Assembly: GCF_001548675.1 (NCBI RefSeq)
Contig: NZ_CP010834.1
Location: 965,501 to 1,029,500, forward strand
Direction of reading: 5' to 3'
DNA: 64,000 nt
Origin: Methanobrevibacter sp. YE315
Lineage (GTDB): Archaea > Methanobacteriota > Methanobacteria > Methanobacteriales > Methanobacteriaceae
The notes below the pieces were generated by a model, which was not told the origin of the DNA, did not search any database, and was given only the letters and a program-made list of their open reading frames with translations. The translations under genes were made by a program, and so were the position numbers. Positions 37,591 through 50,807 of this stretch are shown piece by piece (within the stretch, counting starts at the first letter, position 1; every line of letters starts with the position of its first letter).

Positions 37591-37619
37591 TTCTGATTCA
37601 TTGATAAAAAGTGTGTTAC

Positions 37620-43404: not shown

Positions 43405-43695
43405 TATGGGAAATATAGTTAAAAAGCCATTTACAAAACTTCCCATGAAATAACTGTCATTCAGCACGATTTGTCAAAACAAAGGAATAAAACAACCAAT
43501 GGAAGTGATTATATGATTCATTGAGATGTCTATCCATCAAAAGGATTTGGATTTCTTATGCATCCTTGAAGATATGCATTTGAGTTAGTTTTAAGTAAGG
43601 GTTATGATAAAATAATTATCACTGATGATGATAAGACATTAGATTATGTCAAATCAACTCCGAAAGGTTTAAAGGACTTTGTTATATTTATTTTG
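43405..43695 (+). pseudogene. Broken fifth copy of the ATP-grasp paralogue (C-terminal part)
   Basis: Out-of-frame and stop-containing sequence here matches the region of the downstream gene after its ATP-grasp domain. The bases around 43418-43436 align with those for KSHYKTS. Then SHEITVIQHDL leads to KTTNGSDYMIH, a stop, DVYPSKGFGFLMHP, a stop, and RYAFELVLSKGYDKIIITDD, DKTLDYVKST. The intact gene has ETTGGTVYLVHED, then RYAFDLVLSEGSDKKITIDE and KALDDVYST in the same order and spacing. The ATP-grasp domain itself is absent. It lies directly upstream of, and in the same direction as, the first intact copy. Confidence 0.72.
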
Positions 43696-43729
43696 CATCA
43701 TACAAACTTCTGGATATGGAGGATAGAAT

Positions 43730-45421
43730 ATGAGAAATATTGTTATTGTTGATCCTGCTTCAACAGGAATTAATTTTATTCAGGATGTAATCAATAGAAA
43801 CTATAATCCTATTGGTTTAGAATTAAACGTAATTGATGATGAAGAACATATGGAATATAAAAAAATGGTCAATGCGTGTATTGCTTCAATTGACGCTGAT
43901 TTTGAGATGATTCAAGAAAAAGACACTTATGAAGAAACTCTTGAGATGATTAGGGAATATGACCCTTTATTGGTTATTCCCGCCGCTGAAAGAGGCGTTA
44001 GAATAGCTACCAAATTGGCAAATGATTTAGGTCTTAAATGCAATCCCATTGAAAATCTTGATGCAATAACTTATAAGGATAAGATGCAGGAAAAAATTGC
44101 TGAAAGCGGTCTTAGACATATCAGGGGCCGTGTTGTCAAGTCTGTTGAAGAAGCTATTGAATATTATGATGAATCAGGCTTCAGCGAAGTTGTTGTAAAG
44201 CCGATATATAGTGCAGGCTCTGTGGGCGTTAGAATATGCTTAAATAAAGAGGAAATGATCAATTCCCTTAATTATCTATTTAATGAAATAAACATGTATG
44301 GAGATAAGATTACAGAAATGGTTGTTCAGGAACGCATCAACGGTGAGGAATATTTTGTCAATACCGTTTCTTGTGATGGCAATCATCGTGTAACTCTTAT
44401 GTGGAAGTATACTAAAGTAAAAACCGCTGAAGGAGGACATATCTACGATTCTATTGATACTGTTAATGAATTGGGTCTAGGTGAAGCGGAAATAGTTGAA
44501 TATGCTTATGATGTTGCTGATGCATTGGGTATTAAGTATGGTGCAGTTCATGGTGAGTATATGGTCGATGAAAAGGGCCCTGTTTTGATTGAGGTTAACT
44601 GCCGCCCGTCTGGAGGAAACATGGATGCTGAATATCTGGATAGGATTTCCGGTCAGCATGAAACCGACAGCATTCTTGATGCTTATCTAAACCCTGAAAA
44701 CTTTTTTTACGAACGTGATAGGGGATATAAGTTATATGCTCATGGGTCTTTGAAATTGTTCATTGTCCCAAAAGATATTCTTGCTGAGTCCTCTCCAATG
44801 AAATATATCAGCAATAGGCTGAAAAGCCATTACAAAACATCACAAGATATGATTGATGATAGAAAATTATTTGTCAAAACACAGGACTTTGAAACAACTG
44901 GAGGAACCGTTTATTTGGTCCATGAAGACGGCTATGTGCTCCAGCAAGACCTTAATTTCTTGCGAAGCATTGAAAGATACGCCTTTGATTTGGTTTTAAG
45001 TGAAGGTTCTGATAAAAAAATCACTATCGACGAAAATAAAGCGTTGGATGATGTTTATTCAACTTTGGATAGAGTCAAAGCTCTTGGTTCTACTCTTTTT
45101 GTTACTGAGCAAGTTTTGGATATCGAAAATGTACTGCAGGTTTCTCCTGATGACATTGATGATGTAAAGGGAGAGTTTAACTGTGTCGTCGTTAATCTGA
45201 ATAAAAGTCTCCTGGATTTAAAAGATGACCTGATTGCATACCTGTTCTTAAGGATAATTGACAAGGTCAAAGTGGGAGGATTAATCTTCATTCCTGAAAG
45301 TACTTATCAATGCATTCCTCGTGGAAGAATAGGTACTGAGGCTTTAATCAAGGTACTCGATTTGAAATTGGAATTGCCACTGCATAACTTGAAAAGAATG
45401 GTTATAGCTTCAAAAAGGTAA
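43730..45421 (+). CDS. ATP-grasp ligase paralogue 1 with extra C-terminal domain
   Basis: The 563-residue protein starts with a pre-ATP-grasp Rossmann-like domain (IVIVDPASTGINFIQDVI; DPLLVIPAAERGVR). The ATP-grasp domain spans about residues 110-325: K157 (VVVKP), loop SAGSVGVR (161-168), E201 (VVQERINGEEYFVNTV), and the metal site E288/N290 (IEVNCRPSGG). About 240 further residues follow. The final 100 (EFNCVVVNLNKSL, KVKVGGLIFIPESTYQ, MVIASKR) look like the second half of a methyltransferase-type Rossmann domain lacking the SAM glycine loop. The family resembles amino-acid/peptide ligases, not carbamoyl-phosphate synthase (half the size). Substrate unknown. Confidence 0.82.
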   Translation: MRNIVIVDPASTGINFIQDVINRNYNPIGLELNVIDDEEHMEYKKMVNACIASIDADFEMIQEKDTYEETLEMIREYDPLLVIPAAERGVRIATKLANDLGLKCNPIENLDAITYKDKMQEKIAESGLRHIRGRVVKSVEEAIEYYDESGFSEVVVKPIYSAGSVGVRICLNKEEMINSLNYLFNEINMYGDKITEMVVQERINGEEYFVNTVSCDGNHRVTLMWKYTKVKTAEGGHIYDSIDTVNELGLGEAEIVEYAYDVADALGIKYGAVHGEYMVDEKGPVLIEVNCRPSGGNMDAEYLDRISGQHETDSILDAYLNPENFFYERDRGYKLYAHGSLKLFIVPKDILAESSPMKYISNRLKSHYKTSQDMIDDRKLFVKTQDFETTGGTVYLVHEDGYVLQQDLNFLRSIERYAFDLVLSEGSDKKITIDENKALDDVYSTLDRVKALGSTLFVTEQVLDIENVLQVSPDDIDDVKGEFNCVVVNLNKSLLDLKDDLIAYLFLRIIDKVKVGGLIFIPESTYQCIPRGRIGTEALIKVLDLKLELPLHNLKRMVIASKR

Positions 45422-45487
45422 CATATTTTTCATAAATTTTATACTATAGAATTTATAAATTATATTGTATAATAAGAAGGGGTATAC

Positions 45488-47179
45488 ATGAGAAATATTG
45501 TTGTTGTGGAACCTGTATCAACAGGATTTAATTTTATTAGGGATATTGCAAATAGGAATTTTCGTCCTGTAATCTTGGATATGGACGTTTTGGATAATGA
45601 GGACAATGTAGGATATGACGCTATGTTTAAGGAGGCATATTCTAAAATTGATGTGGACTATGATTTGGTTCATGTAAAGGATACTTATGAAGAGACTCTT
45701 GAAATGATTCGTGAATATGACCCCTTACTTGTTCTTGCTGGTGCCGAATATGGTGTTATCTATGCTACCAGATTGGCAAATGATTTAGGCCTTAAATGCA
45801 ATCCTATTGAAAATCTCGATGCCATGACTTTCAAGGATAAGATGCAGGAAAAAATTGCTGAAAGCGGTCTTAGGCATATCAGGGGCCGTGTTGTCAAGTC
45901 TGTTGAAGAAGCTATTGAGTATTATGATGAATCCGGCTTTGATGAAGTTGTTGTAAAGCCTGTATATAGTGCAGGATCAGTTGGTGTGAGAATATGTCTG
46001 AACAAGGAGGAAATGATTAAATCCCTTACTGAACGGTTTAACGATGTAAACATGTACGGGGAGGAGGTCACAGAAATGGTTGTTCAGGAGCGCATTAATG
46101 GTGAGGAGTATTTTGTCAATACCGTTTCATGTGATGGCAATCATCGTGTAACTCTTATGTGGAAGTACAATAAGGTTAAAACAGCCGAAGGAGGACACAT
46201 TTATGATTCCATTAACACTGTTTATGAATTGGGTCTAGGTGAAGCGGAAATAGTTGAATATGCTTATGATGTTGCTGATGCATTGGGCATAAGGTATGGT
46301 CCGGTTCATGGTGAGTATATGGTTGATGAAAAAGGCCCTGTTTTGATTGAGGTTAACTGCCGTCCAGCTGGAGGAAACATGGATGCGGAGTATCTGGATA
46401 GGATTTCCGGTCAGCATGAAACCGACAGCATTCTTGATGCCTATTTGAACCCTGAAAACTTTTTTTACGAACGTGATAGGGGATATAAGTTATATGCTCA
46501 TGGATCTTTGAAATTGTTCATTGTCCCAAAAGATATTCTTGCTCAGTCTTCTCCAATGAAATATATCAGTAATAGGCTAAAAAGTCATTACAAAACCACT
46601 CAGGAAATTAATGGAGATACACAACTGTTTGTAAAAACACAGGACTTCGAAACAACTGGAGGAACAGTTTATTTGGTTCATGAAGACGGCTATGTGCTCC
46701 AGAAAGACCTCGACTTTTTGAGAAGCGTTGAAAAATATGCTTTTGATTTGGTTTTAAGTGAAGGTTCTGATAAAAAAATCATTGTCGATGATGATGAAGC
46801 ATTAGATGAGGTTAAATCAACTCTAGAGAGGGTTAGAGGCCTAGGGTCTACTCTTTTTGTAACTGATCAACGTTTTGATGTGGATAATGTACTGCAGGTT
46901 TCTCCTGATGACCTTGATGAGGTTAAGGGAGAGTTTAACTGTGTCGTCGTTAATCTGAATAAAAGTCTGGTTGATTTAAAAGATGACATGATTGCATACC
47001 TGTTCTTAAGGATAATTGACAGGGTCAAGGTGGGAGGAATAATTTTCATTCCCGAAAGTACTTATCAATTCATTCCTCATGGCCGTATTGGTGCTGAAGC
47101 TCTTATTAAGGTTTTCGATTTGAAATTGGAGTTGCCTTTACATAATCTGAAAAATATGGTCATCGCTTCAAAAAATTAA
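45488..47179 (+). CDS. ATP-grasp ligase paralogue 2 with extra C-terminal domain
   Basis: Same length (563) and architecture as the preceding gene and very similar to it, with long stretches identical even at base level (for example around 45840-45900 compared with 44090-44150). All ATP-grasp residues are retained (VVVKPVYSAGSVGVR, VQERINGEEYFVNTV, IEVNCRPAGG). Most differences lie in the first 60 residues and in the 430-490 region. That pattern suggests the N-terminal domain sets specificity, while the catalytic part is under constraint or homogenised. It has its own ribosome site (AAGAAGGGG) and an AT-rich promoter-like gap of 66 bases. Confidence 0.82.
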   Translation: MRNIVVVEPVSTGFNFIRDIANRNFRPVILDMDVLDNEDNVGYDAMFKEAYSKIDVDYDLVHVKDTYEETLEMIREYDPLLVLAGAEYGVIYATRLANDLGLKCNPIENLDAMTFKDKMQEKIAESGLRHIRGRVVKSVEEAIEYYDESGFDEVVVKPVYSAGSVGVRICLNKEEMIKSLTERFNDVNMYGEEVTEMVVQERINGEEYFVNTVSCDGNHRVTLMWKYNKVKTAEGGHIYDSINTVYELGLGEAEIVEYAYDVADALGIRYGPVHGEYMVDEKGPVLIEVNCRPAGGNMDAEYLDRISGQHETDSILDAYLNPENFFYERDRGYKLYAHGSLKLFIVPKDILAQSSPMKYISNRLKSHYKTTQEINGDTQLFVKTQDFETTGGTVYLVHEDGYVLQKDLDFLRSVEKYAFDLVLSEGSDKKIIVDDDEALDEVKSTLERVRGLGSTLFVTDQRFDVDNVLQVSPDDLDEVKGEFNCVVVNLNKSLVDLKDDMIAYLFLRIIDRVKVGGIIFIPESTYQFIPHGRIGAEALIKVFDLKLELPLHNLKNMVIASKN

Positions 47180-47221
47180 TCTGCATGGAATAAGGTCATA
47201 AAAAAATAGAAATGATTGTAG

Positions 47222-48931
47222 CTATCTTTTTGATGCTACAATTGTGTTTTTAATTTTGTATGGTGGCAGTTCGATTTTAAGGTCAAGCAGTTTTATCAAT
47301 GCTTCTATACCTTTTCTACCACTTTTGAAGTGTTGGTAGGTTGATTTTGGAATTATGATTGTTCCGCTTGTTTTTACTTTTTCAATGCTGCTTAATAAGA
47401 TTTTTATGAGGGTTTCTGTGTTGTTTTCAACCATGCTTTCATTTAGATTAAGGATTACATAATCGAATTCGCTTCCAATATCGTTTAAGCTGTCCGGAGA
47501 GACCTGAAGTATGTCAATATCTTCGAAATATTCATCTGTTATGAAAAGTCCGGTTCCGTAGATGTCGCTTTTTTCAATTAATTGCCTGAATTTATCAATG
47601 TCAATTGGTTCATTAACTTCTCCTTTGTTGGATTCATCGCTTAAAACTAATGAAAATGCGTGTTTTTCAATGTTTCTTAAATAGTTGATGTTGTCTTGGA
47701 TTACACTATAATCTTCATGAGCCAAATAAACAATGCCGCAGGAACTGTCTAAATCAATTGTTTTGAAGTATGTTTTTTTATCTGTTTCATCGAGATTGTC
47801 CATTGCAGTTTCAACATGGCTTTTTAATTTAACGCTGATGTTTTTCATCGGTGTGGATGTGGCCACCATATCCTTCGGCACGATGAATAATTTCAAAGCT
47901 CCGTAATTGTATAACTCATATTTCTTTTTAAGTTTTTCATGGAAGCGTTTCGGATTTAGATATGCATCCAATATGCTGTCTGTTTCGTGCTGTCCTGAAA
48001 TCTTGTCCAGGAATTTTGCAGACATGTGCGCTCCGCATGGACGACAGTTTACTTCAATGAGGACAGGTCCCTTCTCATCAATCATGTATTCGCCGTGTAC
48101 AGGCCCATATTCGATTCCAAGAGCATCTGCTACATCATAGGCGTATTCTATCATTTCAGCTTCGCCAATATTTAATTCATTTACGCTTTCAGCGGTATCG
48201 TATATTATAGCCCCGTCTGCTGTCTGTATTTTATGGTATTTCCATACTAATGTTACCCTGTGTTCTCCAGCACAGGAAACTGTATTTACAATGTATTCGT
48301 CTCCGTTGATGCGTTCCTGAACCAGAATCTCTGATAAAAGATCTCCATAGACATTGTATTCTTTAAATAATTCTTTTAGTGTGGTTATCATTTCCTCTTT
48401 GTTGGTACACATTCGGACACTTGCTGAACATGAGCTGTATATTGGTTTTAGGACGACTTGCTTTAGGTTTTCGTTATCGTAAAATTCTATTGCCTCTTCA
48501 ATTGACTTAACGACCTTTCCTTTGATTGAGCGAAGGCCATATTCAGCAATTCTTTTTTGCATTTCGTCTTTATAGGTCATTGCATCGAGATTCTTTAAAT
48601 CATTGCATATCAAGTTCAAGTCATTCGCCAATCTGCTTGCAAGCCTTACTCCCTTTTCGTTTCCTGGAAGAACCAAAATAGGATTGAATTTCCTGACAAG
48701 TTCAAGGGTCTCTTCATAGGTGTCCTGTTCATCAATAGAATCAAAATCATACTTAATACTTTTAAGGTCATCTTCTGATGTTTCCTTACGTGCATCTCCC
48801 CTTTCGCTATCTGCGTATTTCGGAGTGAGCACAACAGGGCGGTAGCCTCTATTGACAATATCCTCAATAAAATTAATTCCTGTAGACCTGCATTCTACAA
48901 TAACAATACTTTCCCTTTTTCTGTTTAACAT
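47222..48931 (-). CDS. ATP-grasp ligase paralogue 3, glycine loop altered
   Basis: The 569-residue relative of the two plus-strand copies faces them tail to tail, with a 42-base gap. The domains are the same: VIVECRSTGINFIEDIVNRG, LVLPGNEKGVRLASRLANDL, ATP-grasp, and the C-terminal FDYVILNLNESMVEN / KTSGTIIIPKSTYQ / NTIVASKR. Unlike the other copies the ATP loop reads KPIYSSCSASVR (Cys for Gly) and the metal motif VNCRPCGAH (Ala for Gly), so its activity may be reduced or changed. It is downstream of, and in line with, paralogue 4, separated by 163 bases. Confidence 0.82.
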   Translation of the reverse strand: MLNRKRESIVIVECRSTGINFIEDIVNRGYRPVVLTPKYADSERGDARKETSEDDLKSIKYDFDSIDEQDTYEETLELVRKFNPILVLPGNEKGVRLASRLANDLNLICNDLKNLDAMTYKDEMQKRIAEYGLRSIKGKVVKSIEEAIEFYDNENLKQVVLKPIYSSCSASVRMCTNKEEMITTLKELFKEYNVYGDLLSEILVQERINGDEYIVNTVSCAGEHRVTLVWKYHKIQTADGAIIYDTAESVNELNIGEAEMIEYAYDVADALGIEYGPVHGEYMIDEKGPVLIEVNCRPCGAHMSAKFLDKISGQHETDSILDAYLNPKRFHEKLKKKYELYNYGALKLFIVPKDMVATSTPMKNISVKLKSHVETAMDNLDETDKKTYFKTIDLDSSCGIVYLAHEDYSVIQDNINYLRNIEKHAFSLVLSDESNKGEVNEPIDIDKFRQLIEKSDIYGTGLFITDEYFEDIDILQVSPDSLNDIGSEFDYVILNLNESMVENNTETLIKILLSSIEKVKTSGTIIIPKSTYQHFKSGRKGIEALIKLLDLKIELPPYKIKNTIVASKR

Positions 48932-49094
48932 GATTCCTATATCTATAATATATTTAATTTAAATCTAATTATTACATTAAATATTGAGAGTATTATCTTT
49001 AATTTATTGATATGTTTACTATCTCATTGATTTATTGCAAAGATTATCTATTAGTGCAGTTAAAGGATGGTGTTAAAAAAATAGGGTATTGCAG

Positions 49095-50807
49095 CTATCT
49101 TTTTGATGCTACAATTGTGTTTTTGATTTTGTATGGTGGCAGTTCGATTTTAAGGTCAAGCAGTTTTATCAATGCTTCTACGCCTTTTCTTCCACTGTTG
49201 AAGTGTTGGTAGGTTGATTTTGGAATTATGATTGTTCCGCTTGTTTTTACTTTTTCAATGCTGCTTAATAAGATTTTTATGAGGGTTTCTGTGTCGTTTT
49301 TAACCATGCTTTCATTTAGATTAAGGATTACATAATCGAATTCGCTTCCAATATCGTTTAGGCTGTCCGGAGAGACCTGAAGTATGTCAATATCTTCGAA
49401 ATATTCATCTGTTATGAAAAGTCCAGTTCCGTAAATGTCGCTTTTTTCAATTAATTGCCTGAATTTATCAATGTCAATTGGTTCCTTAACATCTCCCTTG
49501 TCGGATTCATCGCTTAAAACTAATGAAAATGCGTGCTTTTCAATGTTTCTTAAATAGTTGATGTTGTCTTGGATAACGCTATAATCGTCATGAACCAAAT
49601 AAACAATGCCGCAGGCGCTGCTCACGTCATCTGTCTTGAAGTATGTTTTTTTATCTGTTTCATCAAGGTTGTCCATTGCAGTTTCAACATGGCTCTTTAA
49701 TTCAATGCTGATGTTTTTCATCGGTGTGGATGTGGCCACCATATCCTTCGGCACGATGAAGAATTTCAAGGCTCCGTAATTGTATAACTCGTATTTCCTT
49801 TTAAGCTCTTCTTGGAATCTGGCTGGTTTAAGATATGCGTCCAGTATGCTGTCTGTTTCGTGCTGTCCTGAAATCTTGTCCAGGAATTTTGTAGACATGT
49901 GTCCTCCGCATGGGCGGCAGTTCACTTCAATGAGGACAGGTCCATTTTCATCAATCATGTATTCACCGTGCACAGGTCCGTATTCGATTCCAAGGGCATC
50001 TGCTACATCATAGGCATATTCTATCATTTCAGCTTCGCCAAGATTTAATTCATTTACGCTTTCACAGGTATCATATACCATGGCTCCGTCTGCTGTCTGT
50101 ATTTTATGGTATTTCCATACTAATGTTACGCGGTGTTCTCCGGCACAGGATACTGTATTTACAATGTATTCATCCCCGACGATACGTTCCTGAACCAGAA
50201 TCTCTGATAGGGCTTCTCCAAATGAATTGAATTTGTGAAATGTGTCTTTTAATGTGTTTATCATTTCTTCTTTGTTGGCACACATTCTCACGCTAGTTGA
50301 ACCGGAGCTGTATTTTGGCTTCAATACGACTTGCTTTAGGTTTTCATTATCGTAAAATTCTATTGCCTCTTCAATTGACTTAACAACTTTTCCTCTGATT
50401 GAGCGAAGGCCATATTCAGCAATTCTTTTTTGCATTTCATCTTTATAGGTCATTGCATCAAGATTTTTTATATCATTGCATATCAAGTTCAAGTCATTCG
50501 CTAATCTGCTTGCAAGTCTTACTCCCTTTTCGTTTCCTGGAAGAACCAAAAGAGGATTATATTTCCTGACAAGTTCAAGGGTCTCTTCATAGGTATCCTT
50601 CTCGTCAATAAAATCAAATTTATAATTAACATGTTTAAGGTCATTTTTCGATGCTTCATCACGTGCATCGCCCCTTTCACTATCTCCATATTTTGGATTG
50701 AGTATAACTGGATAGTAGCCTCTATTGACGATATCTTCAATAAAGTTGATTCCAGTAGACCTGCATTCCACAATAATGATGTTTTTCTTATCAGCGCTGC
50801 CCAACAT
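49095..50807 (-). CDS. ATP-grasp ligase paralogue 4 with extra C-terminal domain
   Basis: The 570-residue close sister of paralogue 3 has intact motifs: KPKYSSGSTSVR, LVQERIVGDEYIVNTV and IEVNCRPCGGH. The C-terminal 150 residues are almost identical to those of paralogue 3, with the base sequence differing at only scattered sites, while the first 60 residues differ more. This resembles recent duplication or gene conversion. The promoter lies in the roughly 100-base divergent gap before the MGMT-family gene. A role in ligating an amino acid or small acid to an amine is inferred from the fold alone. Confidence 0.82.
   Translation of the reverse strand: MLGSADKKNIIIVECRSTGINFIEDIVNRGYYPVILNPKYGDSERGDARDEASKNDLKHVNYKFDFIDEKDTYEETLELVRKYNPLLVLPGNEKGVRLASRLANDLNLICNDIKNLDAMTYKDEMQKRIAEYGLRSIRGKVVKSIEEAIEFYDNENLKQVVLKPKYSSGSTSVRMCANKEEMINTLKDTFHKFNSFGEALSEILVQERIVGDEYIVNTVSCAGEHRVTLVWKYHKIQTADGAMVYDTCESVNELNLGEAEMIEYAYDVADALGIEYGPVHGEYMIDENGPVLIEVNCRPCGGHMSTKFLDKISGQHETDSILDAYLKPARFQEELKRKYELYNYGALKFFIVPKDMVATSTPMKNISIELKSHVETAMDNLDETDKKTYFKTDDVSSACGIVYLVHDDYSVIQDNINYLRNIEKHAFSLVLSDESDKGDVKEPIDIDKFRQLIEKSDIYGTGLFITDEYFEDIDILQVSPDSLNDIGSEFDYVILNLNESMVKNDTETLIKILLSSIEKVKTSGTIIIPKSTYQHFNSGRKGVEALIKLLDLKIELPPYKIKNTIVASKR

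Follow-up and report, generated by a model that had tools for sequence, protein, structure and literature searches.

ATP-grasp proteins of the L-amino-acid-ligase type with a predicted methyltransferase-like C-terminal extension form a multi-copy family in Methanobrevibacter

The solved L-amino acid ligases (LALs), such as BacD/YwfE, BL00235 and RizA, share a three-domain ATP-grasp fold and are the closest described relatives of the genes reported here. A second point of reference is Methanobrevibacter ruminantium, in which non-ribosomal peptide synthetase (NRPS) genes adjoin MatE exporter genes (mru0068/0069 and mru0351/0352); ATP-grasp proteins are not mentioned in the paper describing them (PMC2812497). 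Our literature search retrieved nothing on PRK07206, on the ligase structure 30vh, or on ATP-grasp proteins with a methyltransferase-like domain in archaea.

Here, we analysed a stretch of 64,000 nucleotides (hereafter, the window) from the genome of Methanobrevibacter sp. YE315, which consists of one contig of 2.27 Mb. As the initial annotation had described, the window contains four intact ATP-grasp paralogues of 563–570 codons, two on the forward and two on the reverse strand, together with a broken fifth copy:

43423–43659, forward strand: decayed fragment of a fifth copy, residues ~365–445 (tblastn, 48% to copy 2, E 5e-15)
43730–45421, forward strand: copy 1, ATP-grasp ligase of clade A, 563 aa
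44990–45418, forward strand: C-terminal extension of copy 1, residues 421–563, predicted methyltransferase-like partial fold
45488–47179, forward strand: copy 2, ATP-grasp ligase of clade A, 563 aa
46748–47176, forward strand: C-terminal extension of copy 2
47222–48931, reverse strand: copy 3, ATP-grasp ligase of clade B, 569 aa, with G163C and G296A
47225–47650, reverse strand: C-terminal extension of copy 3
49095–50807, reverse strand: copy 4, ATP-grasp ligase of clade B, 570 aa
49098–49523, reverse strand: C-terminal extension of copy 4 (dS against copy 3, 0.09)

The fragment is interrupted by three in-frame stops (two TGA and one TAA). Upstream of the fragment and copy 1, in divergent orientation, lies a gene of the sodium:dicarboxylate symporter family (PF00375; 41994–43244). 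Outside the window, the same genome encodes one more full-length copy, the fifth, at 1758343, and three short paralogues of 424–427 aa (1575079–1578915) that have no C-terminal extension. In one of these short paralogues (L010:6062–7336), the conserved Lys157 is replaced by Arg, which may impair the protein. In addition, an ORF of 244 aa (L011:4131–4865; 2172148–2172849 in the window's genome) spans no more than the C-terminal half of a short ATP-grasp ligase and is possibly a truncated gene.

By sequence and predicted fold, residues 1–420 are of the L-amino-acid-ligase type. When the family profile was searched against the PDB, the LAL 30vh was matched over residues 3–419 (E 1e-57), followed by BL00235 and BacD. 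The AlphaFold2 model of copy 1 (pLDDT 86, pTM 0.83) shows the three-domain ATP-grasp fold of the solved LALs, and in the Foldseek search of this model against the PDB, LALs took ranks 1–4, 6, and 7 (E 1e-21 to 1e-25), with BL00235, BacD, and RizA among the best fold matches. The 30vh profile and these three folds support the earlier proposal that the proteins ligate amino acids or small peptides. The initial annotation had also stated that all copies but one keep the catalytic residues; the seven key residues of the LAL ATP/metal and catalytic sites (K116, K157, E207, E276, E288, N290, and R292) are in fact present in all four window copies, and what sets copy 3 apart is G163C and G296A, two positions that are variable in other family members too. 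Among the NCBIfam models, PRK07206 (NF005543) matched residues 1–418 of the window copies with E ~1e-78 (256–265 bits, under the cut-off of 302 bits), and DdaF (NF041595, dapdiamide A synthase) matched with E ~1e-38 to 1e-45 (130–154 bits, under the cut-off of 840 bits).

On balance, we regard it as probable that these genes encode NRPS-independent ligases that produce small exported peptides and carry a non-catalytic methyltransferase-like tail. Following the chemistry of the family, an amino acid or a related acid would have its carboxylate activated by ATP to an acyl phosphate, which a second amino acid would attack through its amine, yielding a dipeptide-like product with no NRPS involved. 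This product would be a specialised metabolite, likely leaving the cell through a dedicated pump, which in many relatives would be a directly downstream MATE. The paralogues would probably differ in the substrates they accept, and the tail would probably serve as a structural, docking, or gating domain. The scores below the PRK07206 and DdaF cut-offs count against this reading; judged from sequence and model, the genes have the fold and residues of LALs yet fall below the cut-offs of the named subfamilies.

The C-terminal extension is smaller than previously thought. Among the matches listed, the bacterial plasmid relatives end at residue 400–438, and none of the 147 plasmid-search records covered 80% of the query. 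Since 30vh aligns up to residue 419 and the listed plasmid relatives end at 400–438, residues ~301–420 are assigned to the ligase, so that the 240 extra residues of the initial annotation shrink to an extension of ~143 residues (421–563), the remainder being part of the ligase. The tail was modelled alone with 46 relatives (pLDDT 84, pTM 0.80), giving the order helix, strand, strand, helix, strand, helices, strand, helices, strand, strand. In the Foldseek search of this model, the best PDB matches were nearly all SAM methyltransferases (E 1e-4 to 1e-3), and the GxGxG glycine loop for SAM binding was absent in all 46 tails. For the tail, a class I methyltransferase fold is predicted that is truncated and has no SAM loop; judging by the order of its elements, a portion of the fold's first half appears to be missing. 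The model, the Foldseek matches, and the lack of GxGxG bear out the methyltransferase-like partial fold without a SAM loop that had been proposed for this region. The match is partial and based on a predicted model (TM ~0.5, rmsd 5–9 Å), which counts against our preferred reading.

Sequence comparisons of the tail gave faint signals. The tail alone matched unrelated proteins among the PDB sequences (best E 0.04), and Pfam returned only scattered weak matches for the 46 tails, a few of them to methyltransferases and none significant. Its profile aligned with two single methyltransferases in the correct register, for one of them from strand 4 to strand 5, but at non-significant levels (E 0.02 and 0.07, against 0.44 for a control protein). 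No standalone tail genes were present among the matches, each of which lay in a frame of ligase length, in a broken or incomplete copy, or at the end of a contig. On a Yersinia plasmid, the gene of a bacterial relative has an overlap of 4 bp with a complete methyltransferase gene, which hints at a way in which a ligase-methyltransferase fusion might come about. The same overlap, the methyltransferase identity of the top fold matches, and the conservation of the tail, in which some residues are near-invariant, could instead point to a bifunctional enzyme whose tail retains an atypical mode of binding SAM or a different nucleotide and modifies what the ligase makes. We consider this quite improbable, given that GxGxG is found in no member and that the element order lacks part of the first half of the fold. 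The preferred reading remains that of a ligase with a non-catalytic tail. The initial annotation had been unable to match the whole domain order to a named enzyme: the core does fall in a known ligase group, and the extension matches no known ligase family.

The extended family was found in 35 of the 139 Methanobacteriaceae genomes, in 3 of the 17 genera, with 1–9 copies each and a patchy distribution; PRK07206-like genes of any kind were found in 38 of the 139. It is consequently an accessory multi-copy family and not a wide single-copy housekeeping gene. A second scan gave 49 loci, comprising 48 from Methanobrevibacter and one from an ‘archaeon’, and the hosts, where given for these loci, were goat, deer, reindeer, or horse. 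In the collections searched, every occurrence of the extension was in a Methanobrevibacter-type methanogen, most of these methanogens coming from herbivore guts. The distribution bears on two other possible functions. A weak match to the NCBIfam model MptN (E 1e-6) would fit a cofactor ligase, for example one that adds glutamate tails to methanopterin-type cofactors. We give this next to no credence, as the match is far weaker than those to LALs and DdaF and the family is patchy, whereas methanopterin-type cofactors are universal in methanogens. The capsule or wall product envisaged by the initial annotation is likewise not supported, the family being too patchy for a pseudomurein enzyme. Methanobrevibacter does possess pseudomurein, and the ATP-grasp protein OG0001014 has been put forward as a candidate for pseudomurein synthesis; OG0001014 is, however, annotated as CPS-like and lies within the conserved wall-gene cluster (PMC11915815). 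Wall genes should be universal, and presence across the pseudomurein-containing archaea would be expected (PMC11915815) where the extended family occupies about a quarter of the genomes; we therefore rejected pseudomurein cell-wall peptide ligation, which is very unlikely.

The evidence for export of a peptide product comes from the neighbouring genes. A MATE exporter was the next gene on the same strand in 16 of the 53 members with a known next gene, and in 12 of these 16 it was within 18 bp of the ligase; MATE genes account for ~0.7% of all genes in the window's genome. The binomial probability of this linkage is 1e-21 if members are treated as independent, a value that is far too strong because the members are related. 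The starred branches of the tree force at least three changes of the MATE label, and from those alone P is ~0.007. Other transporters also occur beside family members and relatives: some other copies adjoin MFS transporters, the fifth full-length copy has an FtsX-type ABC permease on each side and an ABC ATPase close by, a short archaeal relative adjoins a POT/PTR2 peptide transporter, and a relative on a Priestia plasmid overlaps an EamA transporter in a cluster that includes a carrier protein. Approximately two-thirds of the copies, among them the four of the window, are without a directly adjoining exporter, which counts against the preferred reading. The secreted product suggested earlier is accordingly supported through the linkage of relatives and not through the window's own copies, and export is the least certain step for the window cluster because no exporter lies in the same unit as these copies.

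The linked MATEs form one clade (support 99). Next to it in the tree (support 87; 54% identity) stands a MATE of the window's genome that is encoded immediately after an NRPS; canonical MATEs, for example that at 37611 in the window, are distant. The linked MATEs (L055:8934–10631 and others) are also ~100 aa longer than canonical ones. A histidine-kinase-like ATPase tail was considered for these proteins, scored weakly in 3 of 19, and was dropped as evidence. The kinship with an NRPS-linked MATE raises the alternative that the ligases tailor or extend the NRPS products of the same genome and do not make free peptides. In line with this, the three short paralogues sit between an NRPS and a MATE, and extended copies lie 3–8 kb from NRPS genes at two loci (L076 and L085). 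We nevertheless judge it unlikely, because most extended copies, including those of the window, have no NRPS nearby and many copies form a two-gene unit with a pump.

Further gene arrangements were observed around these loci. The window's genome has additional NRPS genes, each followed by a long MATE, at L101, L102, and L104 (555–565 kb and 1447–1457 kb); small ORFs of STAS-like and anti-sigma-like type occur in their vicinity, an arrangement also described for M. ruminantium. At L085 (11064–14040), an extended ATP-grasp copy is followed directly by two nitrogenase-component-1-like genes, and NRPS genes are found to either side. Another locus (L105; G129:C70:1–11480) carries at least six short ATP-grasp ligase-like genes in tandem beside an amino acid permease; it has a GC content of 28.5% and in-frame TGA throughout (open if TGA encodes Trp), and the contig is probably a contaminant derived from an organism that uses a different genetic code.

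The window copies are 82% (copies 1 and 2) and 88.5% (copies 3 and 4) identical within pairs and 55% identical between pairs. The dN/dS values of the two close pairs were 0.19 and 0.20; such purifying selection indicates that the copies are real genes whose function is maintained. The fastest-diverging part is the first 62 residues (dN/dS 0.47 for copies 1 and 2), so the claim that the N-terminal domains vary most holds for this segment, while the rank of the tail differs between the pairs: it is the second-fastest to diverge in copies 1 and 2, yet the best-conserved part in copies 3 and 4. Between copies 3 and 4, dS is 0.66 over the first 62 residues and 0.09 over the tail, and this contrast suggests that their 3′ ends were homogenised by recent gene conversion. 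The tree places copies 1 and 2 as a recent pair in clade A and copies 3 and 4 as another recent pair in the separate clade B. A goat-gut relative (L056) has one clade A and one clade B copy, tail to tail, flanked by the same ClC-like and nitroreductase-like genes as the window cluster. Taken together with the tree, this arrangement is most simply explained if the cluster grew from an ancestral convergent A/B pair, the gene on each side duplicating.

If our preferred reading is correct, a ligase and a pump, with the ligase in up to nine copies per genome, would give the archaea that produce rumen methane a second, simpler way of making peptides for export, one that surveys for NRPS clusters would be expected to miss, as they would pass over a lone ATP-grasp gene. 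The interest of the family lies in its pointing to peptide metabolism without NRPSs in these rumen methanogens, and its tail would be a clear case of a methyltransferase-like fold apparently reused for another purpose. More tentatively, and with doubt prevailing, one could imagine an unrecognised small-peptide system in gut Methanobrevibacter, in which an expanded ligase clade carries a fused, dead methyltransferase-like domain needed for activity or for hand-over to a dedicated MATE, and the paralogues produce different secreted peptides acting on neighbouring rumen microbes.

Compared with the described systems, the type of the ligase core is known, and what appears to be new, from sequence and modelling, is the methyltransferase-like extension of 143 residues. 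The family shares with LALs the ATP-grasp architecture over residues 1–420, the ATP/metal residues, the best sequence and fold matches, and exporter neighbours; it differs in its low identity, its methanogen origin, its multi-copy clusters, and the tail, which is found in none of the solved ligases. PRK07206 is matched over residues 1–418 and DdaF over most of the core, but neither model includes the tail and the scores are under the cut-off, far under in the case of DdaF. The predicted fold of the tail partially matches class I SAM methyltransferases, and the tail departs from them in being truncated, lacking the glycine loop, and being fused to a ligase. The NRPS-MatE clusters of M. ruminantium belong to the same genus and have the same exporter type, the linked MATEs being kin of an NRPS-linked MATE, whereas the biosynthetic gene here is a single ATP-grasp ligase.
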